From Clostridiales bacterium (GTDB lineage Bacteria; Bacillota; Clostridia; Christensenellales; Aristaeellaceae), in NCBI GenBank assembly GCA_015056015.1, contig SVHD01000019.1, positions 1-42,541 on the forward strand: DNA of 42,541 nt, in the 5' to 3' direction. The translations under genes were made by a program, and so were the position numbers. Shown here piece by piece: positions 6,442 to 42,227 of this stretch. Within the stretch, counting starts at the first letter, position 1. Each line of letters starts with the position of its first letter. A model generated the notes under the pieces. That model worked only from the letters and a program-made list of their open reading frames with translations, did no database searches and was not told the origin of the DNA.

Positions 6442-8547
6442 ATGCAGGCACGGGTGGTCAATTATCATGGCGTAAATTCCATTGAAATCAATGGGAAGAT
6501 TTTTCAATATGTAGGCTATCGTTCCTGGACGCCCAAGGAAAAATATCTCAGGGCCTTTGATGAACTGGGCTTTCCCTTTATGACCATGCTGCCCAGCGGC
6601 ATCAAAAATTCCCTGGGCGTGCCCTATTCCCCCTACGGCGAATACTGGATCGGGGAGGGAAAATACGATTGGGATGTGCTGCGGCGGCAGATCGATGATT
6701 TTGTCAATTACGCGCCCCATACCTATATCCTCCTCAATATTATGCTGGATACCCGGGACTGGTTTTTGAAGGAGCATCCCGATTGCCCCAATTCCTTTAT
6801 TTACTTTACGGCGGCCTGCGCTTACAAGCCCTGGATTGAGGCGGCGTCGCAGATGGTGAAGGATACCATCGATTTTGTGGAACGGGAATACCCGGAAAAA
6901 GTTTTCGGCATTATGCTGTCCGCCGGCGGCACCTGCGAATGGCATAATAAGGCGCCGGATTTTTTGCAAAATGAAAATCGGCTGGCGGATTTCAGACGCT
7001 GGTGCGGCCGGCCGGACGCCTGGGTGCCCACCTCTGCGGAAAGAGCAGAAACAGGGGATGACGCCGCCCGCAGAGGCGGCGATCATGATGTGGCTATCAC
7101 CGATACGCTGCAATATATGCCCGCCCCGAAAAACGCTGCGGAAATCCAATATGGGATGTTCCGCGATCCGGTTTTGCAGAAAAATACCATGGATTTCTAT
7201 CGCTATTCTGCCAGCATTGTGATCGATACGCTGCGGCATTTTGCCCGCTTGGTGAAAACGCATACGAATAACCGGCTGCTGGTGGGCGCGCCGGTGGGCT
7301 ATATTATGAATGCCGCGCCGGTTTATACGTATATGTATCAGGCGCTGCAAATGAAGGAACTGGATTTGATCGCCTGCCCGGCCTCCTATAGTCATCGCAC
7401 GCTGGATAGCGTCAGCTCCTCCCAGACGGGGCTGGATGCGGTTCGCCTGAATGGCAAAGTGATGGTGCATTCTGTGGATAACGTCACCTATGCCGGCAGC
7501 AGAACGGCTTACGGCCAGATGCTGCTCTATGCCCATATCGCCCATGAAAGCATGGAGCAATCCATCAATTATATCCGCCGGGAAACCGCCATGGCCATGG
7601 CCAAGGGCGCAGGATTCTGGTTTTTTGATATGTATGCCTGCTGGTATCCCGAGGAAAAGGATCGGTACGAGCTGTACAGAATCAAGGAAGCCTACGGAAA
7701 GATTCTGGAAAAGCCGGTGAAATATACTGCCCAGGTGGCCATGCTGATGGATACCACTGCCATTCTCCATAGCCCCGCGCTGGATCAGTGGGGCAAGGAA
7801 ACCAATGTGGATCAGCGGGAAGAATTGGGGCATATGGGCTGCCCGGTGGATTTCCTGTCCGTTTATGATCTGCTGCTGCCCGATTTCCCCGATGATCAGT
7901 ATAAGCTGATGATCCTGCCCAGTTGCTTTTCTGCGGGGACGGAATTGCGGGATGCCGTCAATCGCCTGCGGAAAAAGGGCGTCAGTTTCCTTTTCTATCA
8001 TGCCGCCGGCGGCATGACCGAAACGGGGCTGGATTATGAGGCGGCCTCCGATTTTACCGGCATTCATCTTTGCCCTGATCCGGAAAAGGCCTTCTTTACC
8101 CTGGTGGAAAAGGAGCATAATTGCCTGGGCTATGATAAAATCTACGGCCATCCCCGGAAGCTGGTGGTCACCCCGGCCATGACCGCGGATGACCCGGATA
8201 TCGAGGTGTGGGGCAGGGATATGTTTTCCCAGAAACCCCGTCTGGTACTGAAAAAACGGGAAAAGGGCTTTGACGCCTGGACCTTCCGTGGAACCGTGCC
8301 TGCAGGGGTGCTAAGGAAAATCGCGCTGGAGGCCGGGGTGTTCATGTATCAGGATCATGGATTGCCCACCTACGCCAACGGGCGCATGGCCGCCTTCTTC
8401 GATCATAAAGGCGGAAAACGGGAAATCACCTTCCCCTACAAGGGCAAAATGCTGGATTATTACACCGGTCAGGAATACGAAAGCGACGGCACGCCCCTGC
8501 AGATTGAATTCAAGGAAAACGAATGCAAGCTCTTCATTTATGAGTAA
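6442..8547 (+). CDS. Glycoside-hydrolase-like protein (GH42/clan A type), copy 1
   Basis: The 701-residue cytoplasmic protein has three parts. Residues 1-430 look like a TIM barrel with many conserved aromatic residues and KVFGIMLSAGGTCEWHN, where Glu166 is the likely acid/base at the end of strand 4; a nucleophile is not obvious (VMVHSVDNVTY at the expected place has Asp). Residues about 445-590 (YKLMILPSCFSAGTELRDAV, RLRKKGVSFLFYHAAGG) form a Rossmann-like domain as in the trimerisation domain of GH42 beta-galactosidases. A beta-rich tail follows (ANGRMAAFFDHKGGKREITF). No signal peptide. GGGAG precedes the ATG. It is 24 bases from a close paralogue. The substrate is unknown; the neighbouring sialidase-fold gene suggests host or dietary glycans. 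Confidence 0.6.
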   Translation: MQARVVNYHGVNSIEINGKIFQYVGYRSWTPKEKYLRAFDELGFPFMTMLPSGIKNSLGVPYSPYGEYWIGEGKYDWDVLRRQIDDFVNYAPHTYILLNIMLDTRDWFLKEHPDCPNSFIYFTAACAYKPWIEAASQMVKDTIDFVEREYPEKVFGIMLSAGGTCEWHNKAPDFLQNENRLADFRRWCGRPDAWVPTSAERAETGDDAARRGGDHDVAITDTLQYMPAPKNAAEIQYGMFRDPVLQKNTMDFYRYSASIVIDTLRHFARLVKTHTNNRLLVGAPVGYIMNAAPVYTYMYQALQMKELDLIACPASYSHRTLDSVSSSQTGLDAVRLNGKVMVHSVDNVTYAGSRTAYGQMLLYAHIAHESMEQSINYIRRETAMAMAKGAGFWFFDMYACWYPEEKDRYELYRIKEAYGKILEKPVKYTAQVAMLMDTTAILHSPALDQWGKETNVDQREELGHMGCPVDFLSVYDLLLPDFPDDQYKLMILPSCFSAGTELRDAVNRLRKKGVSFLFYHAAGGMTETGLDYEAASDFTGIHLCPDPEKAFFTLVEKEHNCLGYDKIYGHPRKLVVTPAMTADDPDIEVWGRDMFSQKPRLVLKKREKGFDAWTFRGTVPAGVLRKIALEAGVFMYQDHGLPTYANGRMAAFFDHKGGKREITFPYKGKMLDYYTGQEYESDGTPLQIEFKENECKLFIYE

Positions 8548-8571: not shown

Positions 8572-10662
8572 ATGCAGGCAAGAGTAGTCAAGCACAACGG
8601 GGTGAATTGCATTGAAATCAATGGGAAGATATTTCCTTATGTGGGCTATCGCTCCTGGATGCCCCAGGAAAAATATCTTCGTTCCTTTGATGAACTGGGC
8701 TTTCATTTCATGACCATGCTGCCCAGCAGCATCAAAAATTCCCATGGCGTGCCCTATTCTCCCTACGGTGAATACTGGATCGGGGATGGAAAATACGATT
8801 GGGATGTGTTGCGCAAACAGATCGATGATTTTGTGAATTATGCGCCCCATACCTATATCCTGCTTAATCTGATGCTGGATACCCGGGAATGGTTCCTCAG
8901 GGATCATCCGGCCTGCCTGAATTCCTTTAATTATATTTCCGCGGCCTGCGCCTACAAGCCCTGGATTGATACGGCCTCCCGGATGCTCAGAGATACCATT
9001 GATTTTGTGGAAAGGGAGTATCCGGATAAGGTATTTGGCATCATGCTCTCTGCCGGCGGCACCTGCGAATGGTATAATCGGTTTCATGATTATCCTGAAA
9101 ATGAGGTGCGGGATGCGCATTTCCGGGCCTGGTGCGGCCGTGCCGATGCGAAATTGCCCACGATAGCGGAAATGCAGGAAACCGGCGATGATGCGGCCCG
9201 GAAACTGGGGCAGGATACGGAAGGGCGGTTTGGCATTTTCCGGAATCCCGCAATCCAGAAGGGCGTGATGGAGTACTATCAATATTCCAATCAATTGGTT
9301 GTGGATACCCTGCAATATTTTGCCAGACTGGTGAAGGAGCATACCCGGAATCGCCTGATCGTGGGCGCGCCATCGGGATATATCATGGGTTACGCATCGG
9401 CAGATGCAGCAAAAGCATATATGTATCAGGTGCTCCAGATCAAGGAACTGGATCTGATCGCCTGCCCGGCCTCCTACAGGCATCGCGCTCTGGACAGCGT
9501 CAGCGCCTCCCAGAGCGGCCTGGACGCCGTTCGTCTCAATGGCAAGGTAATTGTGCATTCTGTGGATAATGTCACCTATGCCGGCGGGCGCACAGTGATG
9601 GGCCAATTGCTCCAGAATCTGACCCAGAATCATACGGCGGCCCGGCATGCGGTTCATGAAAATATGGAGCAATCCATCAATTATATCCGCCGGGAAACCG
9701 CCATGGCCATGGCCAAGGGCGCGGGATTCTGGTTCTTTGATATGTATGCCTGCTGGTATCCGGAGGAAAAGGACCGGTATGAACTGTACAGAATGAAGGA
9801 GGCATACAACAAAATTCTGGAAAAGCCGGTGAAATATACCGCCCAGGTAGCCGTGCTGGCGGATACCACCGCTTCCCTCTATACCCCCATCATCGGGCCA
9901 ATGGGCCATGAAAATATCAAGCTGCAGCAGGAAGAACTGGGGCATATGGGCTGCCCGGTGGAATATCTTTCGATTTATGATCTGCTGCTGCCTGATTTCC
10001 CGGCTGATCAGTATAAACTGATCCTGATTCCCAATTGCTTCTCGGCCGGGCAGGAATTGCGGGATGCGATCAATCGCCTGCGGAAAAAGGGCGTCAGCTT
10101 CCTTACCTATTATGCTGCCGGGGCCATCACGGAAGATGGCCTGGATTATGATGCAGCCTCCGATTTCTGCGGCATTCGCCTGTGCCGGGATCCGGAACCG
10201 GCGCATTTTACGGTGGTGGAGGAAGGGTATAATGCCCTGGGCTATCCGCAGATTTACGGCGATCCCCGGGAATACAAGCCCGAACCTGTTATTACCGTGG
10301 CAGATGAGGATGCAGAAATCTGGGGCCGGGATTTCTTCACAAAGAAAGCGCGCCTGGCCGTGAAAAAGCGGGACAAGGGCTTTGACGCCTGGACCTTCCG
10401 AGGTGCGGTACCCCGGGGAATCCTGCGGAAGCTGGCGCTGGAGGCCGGCGTTTTCATGTATCAGGATCATGGATTGCCCACCTATGCCAATGGCCGCATG
10501 GCTGCTTTCTTTGATCATAAGGGCGGAAAACGGGAAATCACCTTCCCCTACAAGGGCAAAATGCTGGATTATTATACCGGAAAGGAATACGTAAGCGACG
10601 GCACGCCCCTGCTGATTGAATTCAAGGAAAACGAATGCAAGCTGTTTATCTACGAAGATTAA
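8572..10662 (+). CDS. Glycoside-hydrolase-like protein (GH42/clan A type), copy 2
   Basis: This 696-residue protein is a tandem paralogue of the preceding one. Both start MQARVV, share KIF-YVGYRSW, VFGIMLSAGGTCEW (Glu166 in both), INYIRRETAMAMAKGAGFWF and the last 70 residues almost without change. Differences are concentrated in two loops: residues about 200-225, where copy 1 has a longer insert (GGDHDVAITDTLQYMPAPKN), and about 350-370, where copy 2 has a longer segment (QNLTQNHTAARHAVHENMEQ). Both loops lie on the side of the barrel where substrate pockets usually form, so the copies may have different substrates. AAGGAG precedes the ATG. The pair forms an operon ending in a terminator 12 bases after the stop. 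Confidence 0.6.
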   Translation: MQARVVKHNGVNCIEINGKIFPYVGYRSWMPQEKYLRSFDELGFHFMTMLPSSIKNSHGVPYSPYGEYWIGDGKYDWDVLRKQIDDFVNYAPHTYILLNLMLDTREWFLRDHPACLNSFNYISAACAYKPWIDTASRMLRDTIDFVEREYPDKVFGIMLSAGGTCEWYNRFHDYPENEVRDAHFRAWCGRADAKLPTIAEMQETGDDAARKLGQDTEGRFGIFRNPAIQKGVMEYYQYSNQLVVDTLQYFARLVKEHTRNRLIVGAPSGYIMGYASADAAKAYMYQVLQIKELDLIACPASYRHRALDSVSASQSGLDAVRLNGKVIVHSVDNVTYAGGRTVMGQLLQNLTQNHTAARHAVHENMEQSINYIRRETAMAMAKGAGFWFFDMYACWYPEEKDRYELYRMKEAYNKILEKPVKYTAQVAVLADTTASLYTPIIGPMGHENIKLQQEELGHMGCPVEYLSIYDLLLPDFPADQYKLILIPNCFSAGQELRDAINRLRKKGVSFLTYYAAGAITEDGLDYDAASDFCGIRLCRDPEPAHFTVVEEGYNALGYPQIYGDPREYKPEPVITVADEDAEIWGRDFFTKKARLAVKKRDKGFDAWTFRGAVPRGILRKLALEAGVFMYQDHGLPTYANGRMAAFFDHKGGKREITFPYKGKMLDYYTGKEYVSDGTPLLIEFKENECKLFIYED

Positions 10663-13411: not shown

Positions 13412-13676
13412 GAATTGTAAATCAGGCTGTGAGGCAGAAAAATCCCTGATGATTCCGCGTTTCAGCGAGCCGATGAGGGTGTAAGATCGGCACGATGGAT
13501 GGGGGAGGGCCGCTGCCGAGCCAACGCCGGAACGTGATCCTTTCATCAGTATGGCGATTCGGGCTCCTCCCGTTATCAGGAATTGAGGTGGGCGCGCAAG
13601 CGCCAATTGAAGTGGTACCGCGAATGCAGTGTGTCTGTTCGTCTTCAAAGATGTTACAGGCACACTTATTTTTTAG
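13412..13676 (+). ncRNA. T-box leader (tRNA-sensing riboswitch) of alaS
   Basis: The highly conserved T-box sequence TGAAGTGGTACCGCG is at 13608-13622, inside the antiterminator; its TGGT would pair with the NCCA end of a tRNA whose discriminator base is A, as in tRNA-Ala. The terminator stem follows: AGTGTGTCTGT (13628-13638) pairs with ACAGGCACACT (13656-13666, one G-U), then a T-run. About 190 bases of structured stem I/II/III sequence precede it, including GCCGAT...ATCGGC. The specifier codon could not be placed by eye, so Ala specificity rests on the downstream gene and the discriminator match. Uncharged tRNA would stabilise the antiterminator and allow alaS transcription. Confidence 0.9.
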
Positions 13677-13696
13677 GGGAACGAGGAAAAGGTATG

Positions 13697-13800
13697 GCGG
13701 GAGGAGATTTCTTTTGAAAAAGAAATCTCCTCCCGCACCCTCCCAAAGAAAACCACCTCTGGATTTTTCTGGTGTACATTCTATCATCGTCTGTGCCAGT
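13697..13800 (-). repeat. Dispersed hairpin repeat, copy 1 (full)
   Basis: Read on the minus strand: head CACTGGCACAG, core AATCCAGAGGTGG-TTTTCTTTGGGAG, tail hairpin GCGGGAGGAGATTTCTTT with perfect 18-bp complement and 4-base loop. It lies in the alaS 5' untranslated region, head to head with copy 2. Confidence 0.75.
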
Positions 13801-13821
13801 GAAGCAATTCTTATATTGCGG

Positions 13822-13926
13822 CACTGGCATTCAAGAGAGTAGGAGACGCAACAGTATCATCCAGAATCAGTTTCCTTTGGATGGGTGCGGGAAGGCCTTT
13901 CCTTTTCAAAGGAAAGGTCTTCCCGC
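13822..13926 (+). repeat. Dispersed hairpin repeat, copy 2 (full)
   Basis: Head CACTGGCATTCAAGAG, core ATCCAGAATCAG-TTTCCTTTGG, tail hairpin GCGGGAAGGCCTTTCCTTT pairing with AAAGGAAAGGTCTTCCCGC (one G-U). It ends 36 bases before the alaS start codon. With copy 1 it forms an inverted pair with both hairpins outward. Confidence 0.75.
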
Positions 13927-18801: not shown

Positions 18802-18828
18802 AAGGCACGCTCCTTTTGAGATTATTTT

Positions 18829-18896
18829 GCGAGAGGGGGATTCTTTGGTGCCAAAGAATCCCCCTCTCGCGCTCTCCCCAAGAAAGCGGTATGGGA
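18829..18896 (-). repeat. Dispersed hairpin repeat, copy 4 (tail and core only)
   Basis: A perfect 20-bp hairpin: GCGAGAGGGGGATTCTTTGG with its complement and a 2-base loop, followed (minus strand reads it before) by the core CTTTCTTGGGGAGAGC. The CACTGG head has decayed. It lies 28 bases upstream of the pfkA start, inside its 5' leader, and faces copy 5. Confidence 0.7.
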
Positions 18897-18966
18897 TATT
18901 TCTTTTGCACTTCAAAGATGATTTTTCCCCCCGAAAAGAATCAATCAAAGTTTATTCTGCTTGTTT

Positions 18967-19073
18967 CACTGGCACACAAGCTGATTGGACGACATCCAGT
19001 AAAACCCAGAGTGGGTTTTCTTTGGGAGAGCGCGAGAGGGCCTTTCTTTTTCCGAAAAGAAAGGTTCTCTCGC
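18967..19073 (+). repeat. Dispersed hairpin repeat, copy 5 (full; first of three in tandem)
   Basis: Head CACTGGCACACAAGCTGATT, core ACCCAGAGTGGG-TTTTCTTTGGGAG, tail hairpin GCGAGAGGGCCTTTCTTTT pairing with AAAAGAAAGGTTCTCTCGC through two G-U pairs. Confidence 0.8.
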
Positions 19074-19089
19074 CAATTCTCATTTTCCC

Positions 19090-19196
19090 CACTGGTACAC
19101 AAGCCGATTTTGCGGCGACCAGTAAAATCCAGAGTGGGTTTTCTTTGGGAGAGCGCGAGAAGGCCTTTCTTTTTTCGAAAAGAAAGGTTCTCTCGC
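19090..19196 (+). repeat. Dispersed hairpin repeat, copy 6 (full; second of three in tandem)
   Basis: Head CACTGGTACACAAGCCGATT, core ATCCAGAGTGGG-TTTTCTTTGGGAG, tail GCGAGAAGGCCTTTCTTTT with AAAAGAAAGGTTCTCTCGC (two G-U, one A-C). Exactly 123 bases after copy 5. Confidence 0.8.
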
Positions 19197-19212
19197 CAAT
19201 TCTCGTTTTTCC

Positions 19213-19318
19213 CACTGGCACACAAGTAGATTTTGTGGCGACCGGTAAAATCCAGAATGGCTTTCTTGGAAGGGGGCTGGGGAAACCGTTCTTTGGCCAC
19301 AAAGAATGGTTTCCCCAG
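19213..19318 (+). repeat. Dispersed hairpin repeat, copy 7 (full; third of three in tandem)
   Basis: Head CACTGGCACACAAGTAGATT, core ATCCAGAATGGC-TTTCTTGGAAG, then the second arm type: CTGGGGAAACCGTTCTTTG with CAAAGAATGGTTTCCCCAG (one G-U). Again 123 bases after the previous copy. It ends 11 bases beyond the stop of the convergent ATPase gene. Confidence 0.8.
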
Positions 19319-19328
19319 AAAATCTCCA

Positions 19329-21035: not shown

Positions 21036-21055
21036 GGGGAATTCCTCCTTAGTTT

Positions 21056-21121
21056 CTGGGGAAACCCACTTTTGAGGCAAAAGTGGGTTTCCCCAGGCCC
21101 CTTCCCGAAAACCAATCCGGG
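21056..21121 (-). repeat. Dispersed hairpin repeat, copy 8 (tail and partial core)
   Basis: A perfect 19-bp hairpin CTGGGGAAACCCACTTTTG with its complement, 3-base loop. The flank GCCCCTTCCCGAAAACC is a decayed core and the head is missing. It sits 20 bases upstream of the ATPase start codon. Confidence 0.65.
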
Positions 21122-27141: not shown

Positions 27142-27243
27142 CACTGGTACGCATGTGGCTGAAGTGACGTCCGGCAAAATCCAGAATGGCTTTCTTGGAG
27201 GGGGCGGGGAGGGATTCTTTGGCCACAAAGAATCTCTCCCCGC
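27142..27243 (+). repeat. Dispersed hairpin repeat, copy 9 (full)
   Basis: Head CACTGGTACGCATG, core ATCCAGAATGGC-TTTCTTGGAGG, tail hairpin GCGGGGAGGGATTCTTTG pairing with CAAAGAATCTCTCCCCGC (one G-U). It lies just beyond the stop of the convergent GerMN gene. Confidence 0.8.
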
Positions 27244-28311: not shown

Positions 28312-28464
28312 GCTGCACACTCCTTCAAGATGTCCTTGCGCCTATATGTATGTGGCAGGAGGGGATGGGTATGCGTAATTCCTTGCAAAAACTTCATCCG
28401 TGTCTTTTCATTGTATTTTGGTATGATATGGGGGAATTTTACAAGTTTCGCTCCTCCTTTTCTA

Positions 28465-28493
28465 TTGACAAACGGCTGAAAAGCCGATATACT
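28465..28493 (+). promoter_or_regulatory. Promoter of the leader peptide-metNIQ transcript
   Basis: TTGACA (28465-28470), 17 bases, TATACT (28488-28493). The spacer contains the dyad CGGCT-GAAA-AGCCG (28473-28486), which could be a repressor site. Transcription would start near 28500, 38 bases before the leader ORF. Confidence 0.75.
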
Positions 28494-28537
28494 TTTTTCA
28501 TCCTTGGTAATGCTTGAAAGAAAGGGGATGCCATTTG

Positions 28538-28645
28538 ATGCAGTTCGTAGCGGCCATGATGATGGAAATGCAGATGTACATGTGCAGCATGTGCATGCGT
28601 TGCTACGCGCTGAATCATGGCCGCCTCTCTTCCGCCCCGGTATAA
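28538..28645 (+). CDS. Methionine-rich leader peptide of metNIQ (attenuation candidate)
   Basis: A 35-codon ORF, MQFVAAMMMEMQMYMCSMCM then RCYALNHGRLSSAPV, has Met at positions 1, 7, 8, 9, 11, 13, 15, 18 and 20 and Cys at 16, 19 and 22. AAGGGG lies about 10 bases upstream. The Met codons lie within and just after GCGGCCATGAT (28550-28560), which pairs perfectly with ATCATGGCCGC (28614-28624). A second hairpin, CCCCG(G)TATA with TATACGGGG, overlaps the ORF end (28635-28664), and an intrinsic terminator follows at 28671. The next gene is the methionine transporter metN. The layout is that of amino-acid leader peptides such as those of trp or his: ribosomes stalling at Met codons would melt the first stem. 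No S-box or T-box sequence is seen. Confidence 0.7.
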   Translation: MQFVAAMMMEMQMYMCSMCMRCYALNHGRLSSAPV

Positions 28646-28670
28646 GTTTATTGGCTATACGGGGATAGAC

Positions 28671-28702
28671 AGCAGGAAGCAGATGCGCTTCCTGCTTTTT
28701 TT
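28671..28702 (+). terminator. Attenuator-type terminator between leader peptide and metN
   Basis: AGCAGGAAGC-AGATGC-GCTTCCTGCT, a 10-bp perfect stem followed by six T, located 25 bases after the leader stop codon and 30 bases before the metN start. Placed here it must be escaped for metNIQ expression. Confidence 0.85.
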
Positions 28703-28731
28703 ATAGCTGTGGAAAGGAAAGGGAAAGAAAC

Positions 28732-29772
28732 GTGATCGAATTACAGCATGTCAGCAAGCATTTCGGCGGTGAAAAGGGCGTGCATGCCGTGCGGGATGTG
28801 AGCCTGAAAATCAACCGGGGCGAAATTTTCGGCATTGTGGGCTTCTCCGGCGCCGGCAAATCCACCCTGGTCCGCTGCATCAATATGCTGGAAAAGCCCA
28901 CGGAGGGCAAGGTTTTCGTGGATGGCAAGGAACTTACCAGCCTCAAGGGCAGGGCCCTCAATCAGGAGCGGAAAAAGATCGGCATGATTTTTCAGCAGTT
29001 CAACCTTTTCGCTACCCGCACCGTGCTGGATAATGTTTCCTTCCCCCTGCGCTATTCGGGGATGAGCCGCAAGGCCATCCGGGAAAAGGCCGTTTCGCTG
29101 CTCAAATTCGTGGAACTGGAGGATAAAATCGACGCCTATCCCTCCCAGCTTTCAGGCGGGCAGAAGCAGCGGGTGGCCATCGCCCGGGCCCTGGCCAGCG
29201 ATCCCAAGGTGCTGCTTTGCGATGAAGCCACCTCCGCCCTGGATCCCCAGACCACCACTTCCATCCTGAAGCTGCTCAAAAAGCTCAATGCGGAAACGGG
29301 CATCACCATCGTGGTGATCACCCATCAGATGCAGGTGGTCAAGGAACTTTGCCAGCGGGTGGCCGTGATGGAAAAGGGCAAGGTGGTGGAGGAAGGCGAG
29401 GTTTATTCCATCTTTGCCGGGCCTAAAAAGCCCATCACCCAATCCTTTATCAATACCGCATCCAATCTTTCCCGGGTACAGGAATTTATCGAGGAAAACC
29501 CCGCTTTTTCCCAGCTCAATCCCGGAGAAAAGATTATCCGCCTCAAATATCTGGATACCAGCGCGGCGGAAGCCCTGGTTTCCAGCCTTTCCCGGGAATT
29601 CGGGGTGGATCTGAATATTATCTTTGGCAATATCGATTGGATTGGCAATCATCTGCTGGGTGAATTGATCGTGATTGCCAGCGGCAAGACGGAAAATATC
29701 CCTGCCGCCATCGAATATCTGCAGAATAAGAACGTGGAAGTGGAGGTGATATCCCATGATGACCCTGCTTGA
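28732..29772 (+). CDS. metN: Methionine ABC transporter ATP-binding protein
   Basis: The 346-residue protein starts at GTG 28732 (GGAAAGGGAAAG upstream). ABC motifs are complete: Walker A GFSGAGKST (37-45), Q-loop MIFQQFNLF, signature LSGGQKQR, Walker B VLLCDEATSALD and the H-switch ITHQM. Residues about 265-346 form the NIL/ACT-like domain (EKIIRLKYLDTSAAEALVSS ... NIPAAIEYLQNKNVEVEVIS), which in E. coli MetN binds methionine and inhibits transport from inside. It therefore drives D/L-methionine (or related) import with feedback control. The stop overlaps metI by 17 bases. It follows the leader peptide and terminator. Confidence 0.93.
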   Translation: MIELQHVSKHFGGEKGVHAVRDVSLKINRGEIFGIVGFSGAGKSTLVRCINMLEKPTEGKVFVDGKELTSLKGRALNQERKKIGMIFQQFNLFATRTVLDNVSFPLRYSGMSRKAIREKAVSLLKFVELEDKIDAYPSQLSGGQKQRVAIARALASDPKVLLCDEATSALDPQTTTSILKLLKKLNAETGITIVVITHQMQVVKELCQRVAVMEKGKVVEEGEVYSIFAGPKKPITQSFINTASNLSRVQEFIEENPAFSQLNPGEKIIRLKYLDTSAAEALVSSLSREFGVDLNIIFGNIDWIGNHLLGELIVIASGKTENIPAAIEYLQNKNVEVEVISHDDPA

Positions 29773-30436
29773 AAAATGGTTTCCCCATGTGGTGGATAAG
29801 CCGGCAAAATTCCTGGAAAGCATTCAGGAAACGCTGGTAATGACCGGCTGGGCCGGGGGGCTGATGCTGGTTTTCGGCCTGATTCTGGGGGTATTGCTGA
29901 TCGTTACCAAAAAGGGCGGCATTCTGGAATGTCCCGTAGCCTTTCAGATTCTGGATAAAGCGGTGAATCTTTTCCGCTCCATCCCCTTCGTGATCCTCAT
30001 CGCCTTCCTGATGAATATCACCAAGGCGATCATGGGCACCCGCATCGGCATCAAGGGCGTGATTGTTCCCCTGGTGGTGGGCTCCGTTCCCTTCTTTTCC
30101 CGCCAGGTGGAAAGCGCCCTGGCCGGGGTGAATCCCGGGCTGATTGAGGCCGCCAAGGCCATGGGCGTAGGCCCCGTCGGGATCATCTTCCGGGTATATC
30201 TTCGGGAAGGCCTGGCCGCCATTGCGCGGGGCGCTACCATTACCCTCATTTCCCTCATCGGCCTTACCGCCATGGCCGGCTATGTCGGCGCCGGCGGCCT
30301 GGGGGATTACGCCATTACCTACGGCTACAATTACAATCGCATGGATATCGTATGGGCCTCGGTGATCGTGATCGTCATCATCGTCACCGTCATTCAGTTT
30401 ATCGGCACGCTCATCGCCAAAAAGGCAACCCACTAA
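29756..30436 (+). CDS. metI: Methionine ABC transporter permease
   Basis: The 226-residue protein has five predicted membrane helices and the MetI-type permease layout, starting MMTLLEKWFPHVVDKPAKFL. The coupling (EAA) loop is visible as NPGLIEAAKAMGVGPVGIIF followed by RVYLREGL, which docks onto MetN. The end, ITLISLIGLTAMAGYVGAGG then LGDYAITYGYNYNRMDIVW, is characteristic of MetI. It overlaps metN by 17 bases and is followed after 28 bases by metQ. Confidence 0.93.
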   Translation: MMTLLEKWFPHVVDKPAKFLESIQETLVMTGWAGGLMLVFGLILGVLLIVTKKGGILECPVAFQILDKAVNLFRSIPFVILIAFLMNITKAIMGTRIGIKGVIVPLVVGSVPFFSRQVESALAGVNPGLIEAAKAMGVGPVGIIFRVYLREGLAAIARGATITLISLIGLTAMAGYVGAGGLGDYAITYGYNYNRMDIVWASVIVIVIIVTVIQFIGTLIAKKATH

Positions 30437-30464: not shown

Positions 30465-31292
30465 ATGAAAAAGGTATTTGCGTTCATTCTGGCTCTTTCC
30501 CTGATCTGCTGCTCTTCTTTTGCCCTGGCGGATGAAAAAACCAAGGTTTCCATCGGCGTGACCGGCGCTTTCTACGAAGATCTGTGGGCCCCTGCCATTG
30601 AAGCGCTGGCCAAGGAAAATATCATTGTGGAACTGGAACAGTTTTCTGATTTTGCCCTGCCCAACAACGCCCTGAATGATGGCTCCATCAGCATGAATGC
30701 TTTCCAGCATCACGCCTATTTCAACAATGACACCCAAACCAACGGCTATGATCTTTCCGTGCTGGCGGATACCTTTGTGATCACCATGAACATTTATTCC
30801 GCCAAATTCGATACCATTGAAGATCTGGTGGCTGCCGCCAATGAGGGCAAGAAGCTCACCGTGGTGGTGCCCAATGATGCCACCAATTACGGCCGCGCCC
30901 TGATCCTGCTGGCCAATGCGGGCCTGATCACCCTGAATGAATACGAAGGCACCCCCAACATTGAAAACATCGTGGACGCCAAGGTGGAACTGGAGCCCGT
31001 CAATGCGGCCATGACCTATCAGTTCCTCACCGAAGTGGACGCCGCCGTCATCAACGGCAATTATGCCGCCAGCTACGGTGTGGATCCCGAAAGCGCCATC
31101 TTCTATGAAGAAATTGATCTGACCAACGAATCCTTCATCTGCGTTATCGCCGTCCGTACCCAGGATATCGAAAATCCCGTCTACAAGCGGGTGGCCGAAG
31201 TATTCTGCTCCGATGTGACCGGCGAAGTGGCCAACACCGATTTCAAGGGCTTCTTCCACCTGGTCTGGGAAGCCGACAAGGCCGCGGAGTAA
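30465..31292 (+). CDS. metQ: Methionine-binding protein of the ABC transporter
   Basis: The 275-residue protein has a signal peptide (MKKVFAFILALSLICCSSFA, cleavage near ALA-DE). Cys15/Cys16 do not form a standard lipobox, so membrane anchoring by lipid is uncertain. The mature part is of NlpA/MetQ type: KVSIGVTGAFYEDLWAPAIE, VELEQFSDFALPNNALNDGS, MNAFQHHAYFNN, VVVPNDATNYGRALILLANA, and AAVINGNYAASYGVDPESAI. The family usually reads 'D.NyFQH'; here it is SMNAFQHHAYF. It captures methionine outside the membrane. AGGAGG-like GGAGG precedes the ATG. Confidence 0.9.
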   Translation: MKKVFAFILALSLICCSSFALADEKTKVSIGVTGAFYEDLWAPAIEALAKENIIVELEQFSDFALPNNALNDGSISMNAFQHHAYFNNDTQTNGYDLSVLADTFVITMNIYSAKFDTIEDLVAAANEGKKLTVVVPNDATNYGRALILLANAGLITLNEYEGTPNIENIVDAKVELEPVNAAMTYQFLTEVDAAVINGNYAASYGVDPESAIFYEEIDLTNESFICVIAVRTQDIENPVYKRVAEVFCSDVTGEVANTDFKGFFHLVWEADKAAE

Positions 31293-31315
31293 GGGAACGG
31301 AGGAGAGGGGGAACT

Positions 31316-31420
31316 CTGGGGAAACCATTCTTTGTGACCAAAGAACGGTTTCCCCAGGCCCCTTCCAAGAAAGTTATACTGGATACGGCTTGACTGCAGA
31401 AAATCCGCTTGTGTGCCAGT
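31316..31420 (-). repeat. Dispersed hairpin repeat, copy 10 (full)
   Basis: Read on the minus strand: head CACTGGCACACAAGCGGATT, core ATCCAGTATAAC-TTTCTTGGAAGG, hairpin CTGGGGAAACCGTTCTTTG with CAAAGAATGGTTTCCCCAG (one G-U in this direction). The arms are identical to those of copy 7, 12 kb away. Confidence 0.8.
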
Positions 31421-31445
31421 GAAGCAACGGAATGTTTTCTCGGGT

Positions 31446-31506
31446 CCCTTCCAAGAAAGTTATACTGGATTTTGATTGGCTGCAAAGAATCGACTTGTGT
31501 GCCAGT
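31446..31506 (-). repeat. Dispersed hairpin repeat, copy 11 (head and core, hairpin lost)
   Basis: On the minus strand ACTGGCACACAAGTCGATTC ... ATCCAGTATAACTTTCTTGG as in copy 10, but the tail hairpin is absent: the sequence changes after GGAAGGGA. It lies 86 bases from copy 10 in the same orientation. The remaining bases to 31565 contain a short direct repeat (ATTCCGCATTT twice) and the AGGTTG start region of the next gene. Confidence 0.65.
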
Positions 31507-31565
31507 AAAACAAATTTCAATTCCGAATTCCGCATTTCGAATTCCGCATTTTTTCCGGAGGTTGT

Positions 31566-41943: not shown

Positions 41944-41965
41944 TGGAGAGGGACGTATGGAATTT

Positions 41966-42069
41966 GTGGGGGAACCATTCTTTGTGACCAAAGAATGGTT
42001 CCCCCACGCCCCTTCCAAGAAAGTCATACTGGATATTTCGGCTGTTCTCTGATCCGCTTGGATGCCAGT
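41966..42069 (-). repeat. Dispersed hairpin repeat, copy 12 (full)
   Basis: On the minus strand: head CACTGGCATCCAAGCGGATC, core ATCCAGTATGAC-TTTCTTGGAAGG, and a perfect 19-bp hairpin GTGGGGGAACCATTCTTTG with its complement. It begins 22 bases after the aldo/keto reductase stop and is head to head with copy 13. Confidence 0.8.
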
Positions 42070-42102
42070 GACAGAAGGTAAAAAATACCCGGAATATTTT
42101 TT

Positions 42103-42205
42103 CACTGGCACGCAAGTTTGCTTAAACGTATTTGAAATTTCCAGAATGGTTTTCTTTGGGAGAGCGCGAGAGGGACTTTCTTTTTTAAAAGAAAGTCCCT
42201 CTCGC
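42103..42205 (+). repeat. Dispersed hairpin repeat, copy 13 (full)
   Basis: Head CACTGGCACGCAAGTTTG, core TTCCAGAATGGT-TTTCTTTGGGAG, and a perfect hairpin GCGAGAGGGACTTTCTTTT with AAAAGAAAGTCCCTCTCGC. It ends 22 bases beyond the stop of the convergent DUF3343 gene. Confidence 0.8.
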
Positions 42206-42227
42206 AATATTCCCGTCCTCTCTGTGG

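Follow-up and report, generated by a model that had tools for sequence, protein, structure and literature searches.

A methionine-rich, cysteine-containing leader upstream of metNIQ in a Clostridiales bacterium: a candidate ribosome-mediated transcription attenuator

Introduction

In the trp, his, thr, and leu operons of enterobacteria, leader codon runs and alternative hairpins are followed by a terminator before the first gene. Among Bacillota, a leucine-rich attenuator peptide reportedly controls the branched-chain amino acid genes of Staphylococcus aureus. To our knowledge, methionine does not usually figure among the amino acids for which leader-peptide attenuation is described, plausibly because it also starts every peptide. 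S-box (SAM-I) and T-box leaders sense SAM or uncharged tRNA directly.

Three sources describe leaders of comparable kinds. Histidine leaders occur in bacilli (PMC2965389). Mycobacterial polycysteine leaders are leaderless, carry contiguous Cys codons, and affect downstream translation (Canestrari et al. 2020, via PMC9031893). From RNA-seq, a leader termed metL was proposed to precede metNIQ in Streptomyces lividans TK24 (PMC8079986). Its 29 codons begin at a leaderless start, include few Met, and close with the Met/Cys ending GARCMCRRMCAF; no typical Rho-independent terminator was found by its authors (PMC8079986).

Here, we describe a leader before metNIQ in a Clostridiales bacterium (Aristaeellaceae; GCA_015056015.1), located in the 42,541-nt stretch of the forward strand of contig SVHD01000019.1 that was analyzed as a whole (the window). 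Like the classical attenuators, it has a leader ORF with a run of codons for the presumed regulated amino acid, alternative hairpins, and a terminator before the first gene; unlike them, it would read Met codons mixed with Cys codons, and it takes the place occupied in many relatives by an S-box or T-box, neither of which was matched at the window site. The S. aureus leucine leader and the histidine leaders of bacilli share leader-peptide attenuation in Bacillota with the design proposed here but have other codons and precede other genes. The polycysteine leaders, as reviewed, resemble the window leader in that a run of sulfur amino acid codons controls downstream genes, and differ in being leaderless, in their contiguous Cys codons, and in acting on downstream translation. 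The S. lividans leader is likewise a short ORF with Met/Cys codons before the same operon, but it was proposed from RNA-seq, is leaderless, has few Met, and lacks a typical terminator. The mechanism class is known, and the amino acid and setting are nearly undocumented in the literature searched, in which no Met leader proposal other than S. lividans metL was found.

Results and discussion

Parts of the metNIQ leader

All parts of the leader and of the operon lie on the forward (+) strand. A sigma-70-type promoter (TTGACA-17-TATACT; 28465 to 28493) matches the consensus at 11 of 12 positions. Downstream, a Shine-Dalgarno-like AAAGGGG (28521 to 28527) is located 10 nt 5' of the ATG of a leader ORF of 35 codons plus stop (28538 to 28645; ATG at 28538, TAA at 28645), whose peptide is MQFVAAMMMEMQMYMCSMCMRCYALNHGRLSSAPV. 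The peptide contains 9 Met (8 internal) and 3 Cys; 9 Met and 2 Cys fall within residues 1 to 20, and the third Cys is residue 22. Codons 7 to 20 (28556 to 28597) form the Met/Cys run, the proposed site of ribosome stalling. A perfect 11-bp inverted repeat has its 5' arm (GCGGCCATGAT) at 28550 to 28560 and its 3' arm (ATCATGGCCGC) at 28614 to 28624. A second hairpin folds over the end of the ORF (28636 to 28664), and an intrinsic terminator (28671 to 28703), with a 10-bp stem at 28671 to 28696, a 6-nt loop, and a T-run to 28703, precedes the GTG start of metN at 28732. The first-pass annotation had described the promoter, the Met-rich ORF with its Met/Cys counts, the inverted repeat, the second hairpin, and the terminator from the letters alone, and all of these were recovered, the counts exactly.

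The absence of an S-box or T-box before metN, also claimed in that annotation, was borne out by Rfam scans. Upstream of the window metN, neither the SAM-I (RF00162) nor the T-box (RF00230) covariance model matched; at gathering score, the sole match over the whole window was a T-box at 13420 to 13649, away from the leader; and at E values of up to 5 over 28400 to 28800, only a snoRNA model matched, far under its cutoff. An S-box or T-box leader was therefore ruled out. Six leaders, together with the S. lividans peptide, were scanned against NCBIfam and matched no leader family.

The Met-rich leader before the window metN is not a product of chance. Among the 639 stop-defined ORFs of 15 to 70 aa in the window (321 on the + strand and 318 on the - strand), it alone has at least 6 internal Met in 20 residues. 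Upstream regions of metN homologues had a coding-strand ORF with at least 6 Met plus Cys in 12 residues in 26 of 150 cases (window included), versus 1 of 150 on the reverse strand. Between leader stop and metN, a terminator of -14 kcal/mol or better was detected for 28 of 35 leaders, versus 4 of 175 shuffles. Such a terminator was also present at L188, L189, and L190; those of L173 to L175 were weak (about -10 kcal/mol), and the terminator scan found none at L014 or L131.

Co-transcriptional folding and a stall-released antiterminator

Folding was carried out with a co-transcriptional model in which the ribosome masks the RNA as far as 12 nt beyond its A site, and the RNA left free is folded up to the terminator loop. 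Under this model, upstream pairing of the 5' arm of the window terminator averaged 0.68 while the ribosome occupied Met/Cys codons, compared with 0.00 when it was at the stop codon. With footprints of 9, 12, 15, and 18 nt, the stalled value was 0.68 throughout, and the stop value was 0.09, 0.00, 0.00, and 0.00, respectively. The stalled-versus-stop difference was reached by 7 of 600 dinucleotide shuffles.

The pairing joins region 2, the 5' strand of the antiterminator (28623 to 28638), which pairs with 28662 to 28686 when the ribosome is on codons up to about 27, to region 3 (28672 to 28686), the 3' strand, which overlaps the 5' arm and loop of the terminator. Its core, CUUCC at 28629 to 28633 with GGAAG at 28675 to 28679, is lengthened at either end and stacks onto the middle hairpin at 28636 to 28664, which thus sits inside the antiterminator. 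With a stalled ribosome, the weak CTTCC/GGAAG pairing seen by eye in the first-pass annotation proved to be this core. The antiterminator no longer forms after the ribosome has moved beyond about codon 27, and all Met and Cys codons are therefore upstream of the limit. In silico, and within the co-transcriptional model only, antiterminator and terminator exclude each other, and a ribosome stalled at the control codons releases the antiterminator.

Equilibrium folding of the window gave no switch, with a terminator probability of 0.95 to 0.97 at every ribosome position. Because the terminator wins everywhere at equilibrium, the switch must be kinetic. The terminator melted at equilibrium in about 9 of the 30 leaders folded (L017, L019, L086, L125, L130, L133, L135, L137, and L141).

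Across these 30 leaders, a set that holds the near-duplicates L020/L021 and L134/L139, the mean stalled-minus-stop difference in the co-transcriptional model was 0.39, versus 0.18 in shuffles (Wilcoxon p = 1.4e-6). Leaders L014, L017, L129, L131, L132, L134, and L139 were added by eye below the Met+Cys threshold; L090, which passed it, was excluded from the folding set. The difference was above the leader's own shuffle mean in 27 of 30 cases, and in 7 of 30 at most 2 of 60 shuffles were as large; the switch was not significant individually in most of the leaders. L007 was below its own shuffle mean and L148 equal to it, and L107 ran opposite to the model (0.47 stalled, 0.72 at the stop).

In the ribosome-free MFE structure, the Shine-Dalgarno region (28520 to 28527) pairs with region 2 (28624 to 28632) in a wider zone of pairing (28520 to 28532 with 28619 to 28632), so that translation of the leader and the antiterminator strand could be coupled. 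The 11-bp repeat was considered as a protector fold of the ribosome-free RNA and rejected: its stem probability was 0.001 in 28500 to 28705, the pairing of the Shine-Dalgarno region with region 2 taking its place. In 28538 to 28645, with the RNA 5' of the ATG out of play, the probability was 0.98, and in the model the repeat may possibly act as a pause or protector hairpin once a ribosome covers the Shine-Dalgarno region.

Conservation in a same-genus orthologue

One orthologous locus, L188, belongs to the same genus as the window; its MetN is 85% identical, and its flanks have diverged to about half. Three segments were kept: the Met run (37/42 identical), region 2 (28619 to 28638; 17/20), and the terminator (28671 to 28704; 30/34). 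Identity was lower on the 5' side (upstream, 13/30; promoter, 14/29; 5' UTR, 22/44; codons 1 to 6, 9/18) and in the other segments (codons 21 to 27, 12/21; linker at 28639 to 28670, 14/32; after the terminator, 8/21). Over the 300-base alignment, the three attenuator elements matched at 84/96 positions versus 92/195 in all other segments (Fisher p = 5.9e-12), a test that compares one pair of genomes, the window and L188. The limits of the Met run and of the terminator had been fixed before the sequences were aligned, and region 2 was set from the window fold. The three segments kept are those that a leader-peptide attenuator requires.

The stall-released pairing is also kept in L188, which answers the proposal of the first-pass annotation that the RNA be folded for alternative pairings. 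Upstream pairing of the L188 terminator 5' arm was 0.65 with the ribosome stalled and 0.19, 0.02, and 0.19 at codons 28 to 30; at the stop codon it was 0.37, not 0. The middle hairpin has an equivalent fold in L188 despite the 14/32 identity of 28639 to 28670.

These data also bear on the idea that the leader is a structured RNA or riboswitch of unknown kind, its Met-rich ORF being a by-product of self-complementary AUG/CAU repeats. The RNA at 28500 to 28705 does fold strongly (-81.8 kcal/mol; z of -4.4 versus dinucleotide shuffles, with 0 of 200 shuffles as stable), and its Met codons are able to pair mutually. However, ATG falls in one frame of the 35 leader ORFs (169 versus 6 and 7), a count that is partly selection because the leaders were chosen for Met/Cys; the leader frame in L188 has no indels relative to the window though the flanks diverge; and no Rfam family matches. 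We rejected an RNA-only element on the frame bias and the indel-free frame, and consider it very improbable.

Distribution among metN homologues

The window MetN was searched in 200 family genomes (matches at an E value of 1e-60 in 180) and then in 308. Matches at 1e-108 or better came from 31 of the 308, and upstream sequence was read at 30 loci, window included. A Met-rich leader was present at 16 of these 30 near MetN loci (L002 [window], L188, L003, L004, L189, L005, L190, L006, L007, L008, L009, L013, L017, L019, L020, and L021), weak at 1 (L014), and lacking at 13 (L191, L192, L010, L011, L012, L193, L015, L194, L016, L195, L196, L197, and L018). Among the latter, the upstream sequence of L018 is limited to 216 bases, L012 and some others sit behind another gene, and L196 and L197 have an upstream ORF with at least 5 Met plus Cys that was judged by eye not to be a leader. 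L191 has no leader at 62% MetN identity.

A tree of 45 chosen MetN rows placed the window among the ten members of one clade (support 99/98), with L191 and the remaining leaderless rows outside it. The joining of L084/L107 with Cys-leader rows in this tree was not used because two long branches meet there. In the upstream regions of relatives, proposed as a check in the first-pass annotation, a Met-rich ORF was found in 10 of 10 members of the window clade. The expectation that orthologous loci carry such an ORF thus held within the clade and failed at 13 of the 30 near homologues, which are more distant.

Leaders also occur farther afield. An ORF with five Met in 20 residues was found at 4 of 80 named loci, those of Lacrimispora celerecrescens (L107), a Peptostreptococcaceae member (L084), Christensenella (L086), and Chryseobacterium (L082), and at all four a stem and a T-run precede metN; a second Chryseobacterium locus (L111) had no such ORF. 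Counting Cys as well added a Streptomyces locus (L090), whose leader ends in GARCMCRMCRMCAF; L106 and L108 have, by eye, shorter Cys-containing endings. Since the S. lividans and window MetN proteins are far apart and the leader peptides are short and unlike by inspection, we regard convergence as being as likely as common descent for these two leaders.

In a Met+Cys scan of 40 further family loci, 9 passed (within L124 to L148), and a leader-like ORF, MCMMCMAMPCAVLSVHVLLKS, was present in 1 (L170) of six additional upstream regions (L167 to L172). At 15 order- or class-level loci (L173 to L187), the element directly before metN was a Met/Cys leader in 3 (L173 to L175), a SAM riboswitch in 5, and a T-box in 2, with L185 excluded from the Rfam scan (little upstream sequence); L184 has a T-box about 1.3 kb upstream of metN. 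Several class relatives thus use a SAM riboswitch or T-box instead of a leader. In the genome of the window (estimated to be 84.5% complete), the only SAM riboswitch found precedes a gene read by eye as metK (L032), not a transporter gene.

Proposed mechanism

The leader present throughout the clade and the conserved stall-released pairing support, in silico, the ribosome-stalling attenuation put forward in the first-pass annotation. On the folding model, the element is very likely a ribosome-mediated transcription attenuator of metNIQ that reads Met codons with Cys codons mixed in. From the leader parts, their conservation, and their mutually exclusive folds, all observed, we infer stalling, a dependence on Met or Cys charging, and read-through. 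As the leader is transcribed by RNA polymerase, a ribosome would follow and translate its 35 codons. If Met-tRNA (and Cys-tRNA) is plentiful, this ribosome would run on to the stop codon and cover region 2, and the terminator at 28671 to 28696 would form and end transcription before metN. A shortage of elongator Met-tRNA would instead stall the ribosome at codons 7 to 20, leaving region 2 (28623 to 28638) free to pair with the terminator 5' arm around the middle hairpin, and the polymerase would read into metNIQ. With no ribosome, region 2 would pair with the Shine-Dalgarno region at 28520 to 28527, hiding both and leaving the terminator free. Initiation needs Met too, and severe starvation could therefore silence leader translation and favor termination.

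A Met-run leader would be a third, ribosome-based solution for the same operon beside the S-box and T-box. A conserved Met-run attenuator also makes the separation of elongator from initiator Met-tRNA supply directly testable.

Cysteine codons and a sister clade with Cys-rich leaders

At least one Cys codon is present in 34 of 35 leaders, with both TGC and TGT in use. Cys-rich leaders that share this design and terminator layout occur in a second metNIQ clade of the family, e.g., MTNRKMMCCCSKRVFAAPTL in L134. Such leaders, often KMMCCCSxRVFAA, were located upstream of metN at L134, L139, L141, L130, L133, L135, L129, L125, L132, L148, L124, L137, and L131. Twelve Cys-leader MetN proteins form one clade (support 100/100, with row L166 disregarded). 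A clear Cys cluster was observed in 11 of the 12 leaders of that clade, a frequency biased because the operons (L153 to L166) were fetched for their leaders or as neighbors in hit groups; the exception, L131 (operon L165), has scattered Cys and a negative terminator scan. In several Cys-rich leaders, the Cys run is followed by GCTGCGC, which looks able to pair with the 5' arm of the terminator. In L125, L130, L133, L135, L137, and L141, a ribosome stalled on Cys codons causes the terminator to melt even under equilibrium folding.

Given the sister clade, the cysteine sensing raised as an option in the first-pass annotation may be real. A stronger version holds that a shortage of cysteine, or of sulfur amino acids in general, is the true signal and that the Met codons serve only as a slow single-codon spacer placed ahead of the Cys codons or among them. 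The near-universal Cys codon and the sister leaders fit this version, as does the reported response of mycobacterial polycysteine leaders to cysteine (PMC9031893). Nonetheless, Met outnumbers Cys in every window-clade leader (8 internal Met and 3 Cys in the window); L190, a member of that clade, has Met and no Cys, as does L017 outside it, with 6 Met; and of the three window Cys residues, two are kept in L188 and Cys 22 is lost. We therefore think it unlikely that cysteine is the true signal. For the attenuator favored here, our guess is that Met would be the main amino acid sensed and that Cys would provide an additional input.

L188 retains most of the Met and Cys positions in the run, as would be expected if the nascent peptide itself arrested the ribosome on sensing a metal (copper or other), SAM, or some sulfur compound, codon supply being irrelevant. 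Met/Cys spacing of this kind could bind soft metals. Among the leaders, however, residue order varies widely while Met/Cys richness is constant, and the downstream genes encode a Met-type importer, not a metal exporter. Sensing by the nascent peptide is therefore very improbable. The metal sensing that the first-pass annotation attached to a CxxCxxC-like Cys spacing found no support in the present data.

Transporter genes and substrate

The operon comprises metN (28732 to 29772; an ATPase with a NIL domain, GTG start, matching Pfam ABC_tran and NIL), metI (29756 to 30436; a permease, PF00528), and metQ (30465 to 31292; an NlpA-family binding lipoprotein, PF03180, that matched MetQ structures). 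NCBIfam MetN, MetI, and MetQ models were the best hits for the three proteins, all under their curated cutoffs; TIGR02314 scored 392.3 bits on MetN (cutoff, 499.7), and NF008049 scored 178.6 bits on MetI (cutoff, 212).

At a ligand site within SFICVIAVR, the window MetQ carries a Cys in place of the Asn seen in Met-binding MetQ structures. The site was defined by PDB chains 6cva (Ala) versus 6dzx (Asn); we take 6cva to be a ligand-free MetQ mutant. The residue was Cys in 9 of 9 window-clade MetQ proteins (the window among them; L003 is cut off by its contig end), Leu in 13 of 13 from Cys-leader operons, and Asn in the other aligned MetQ proteins, two rows being without the residue. Because leader type and binding pocket change together, the exact substrate is in question; and because of the Cys-for-Asn change and the scores under cutoff, it may not be plain methionine. 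Judged from these protein comparisons, the assignment of the window metNIQ as a plain methionine importer is uncertain.

We tentatively suggest, with somewhat less than even confidence, that Met/Cys leaders are widespread, repeatedly evolved sensors of sulfur amino acids before metNIQ-type transporters (in Bacillota, one Bacteroidota member, and Streptomyces), with a Met:Cys mix tuned to the paralogue (Met runs in one clade, Cys-rich leaders in another). The leader would then predict the substrate, and the window transporter may take up some sulfur compound that is not plain methionine. For poorly annotated NlpA/MetQ-type transporters, the codon mix of the leader may be of help in predicting the substrate.

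Other features of the window

The T-box at 13420 to 13649 lies upstream of a gene starting at 13885 or slightly later, presumably alaS by eye. Dispersed repeats of about 60 to 120 nt, in both orientations and apparently intergenic, were observed at 13693 to 13807, 18826 to 19324, 21053 to 21111, 27142 to 27204, 31315 to 31510, and 41960 to 42209, some of them in tandem with 123-nt and 86-nt spacing. A tandem duplicated pair of genes for proteins of about 700 aa occupies 6442 to 8547 and 8572 to 10662, with DNA 80 to 88% identical over the repeat blocks found.
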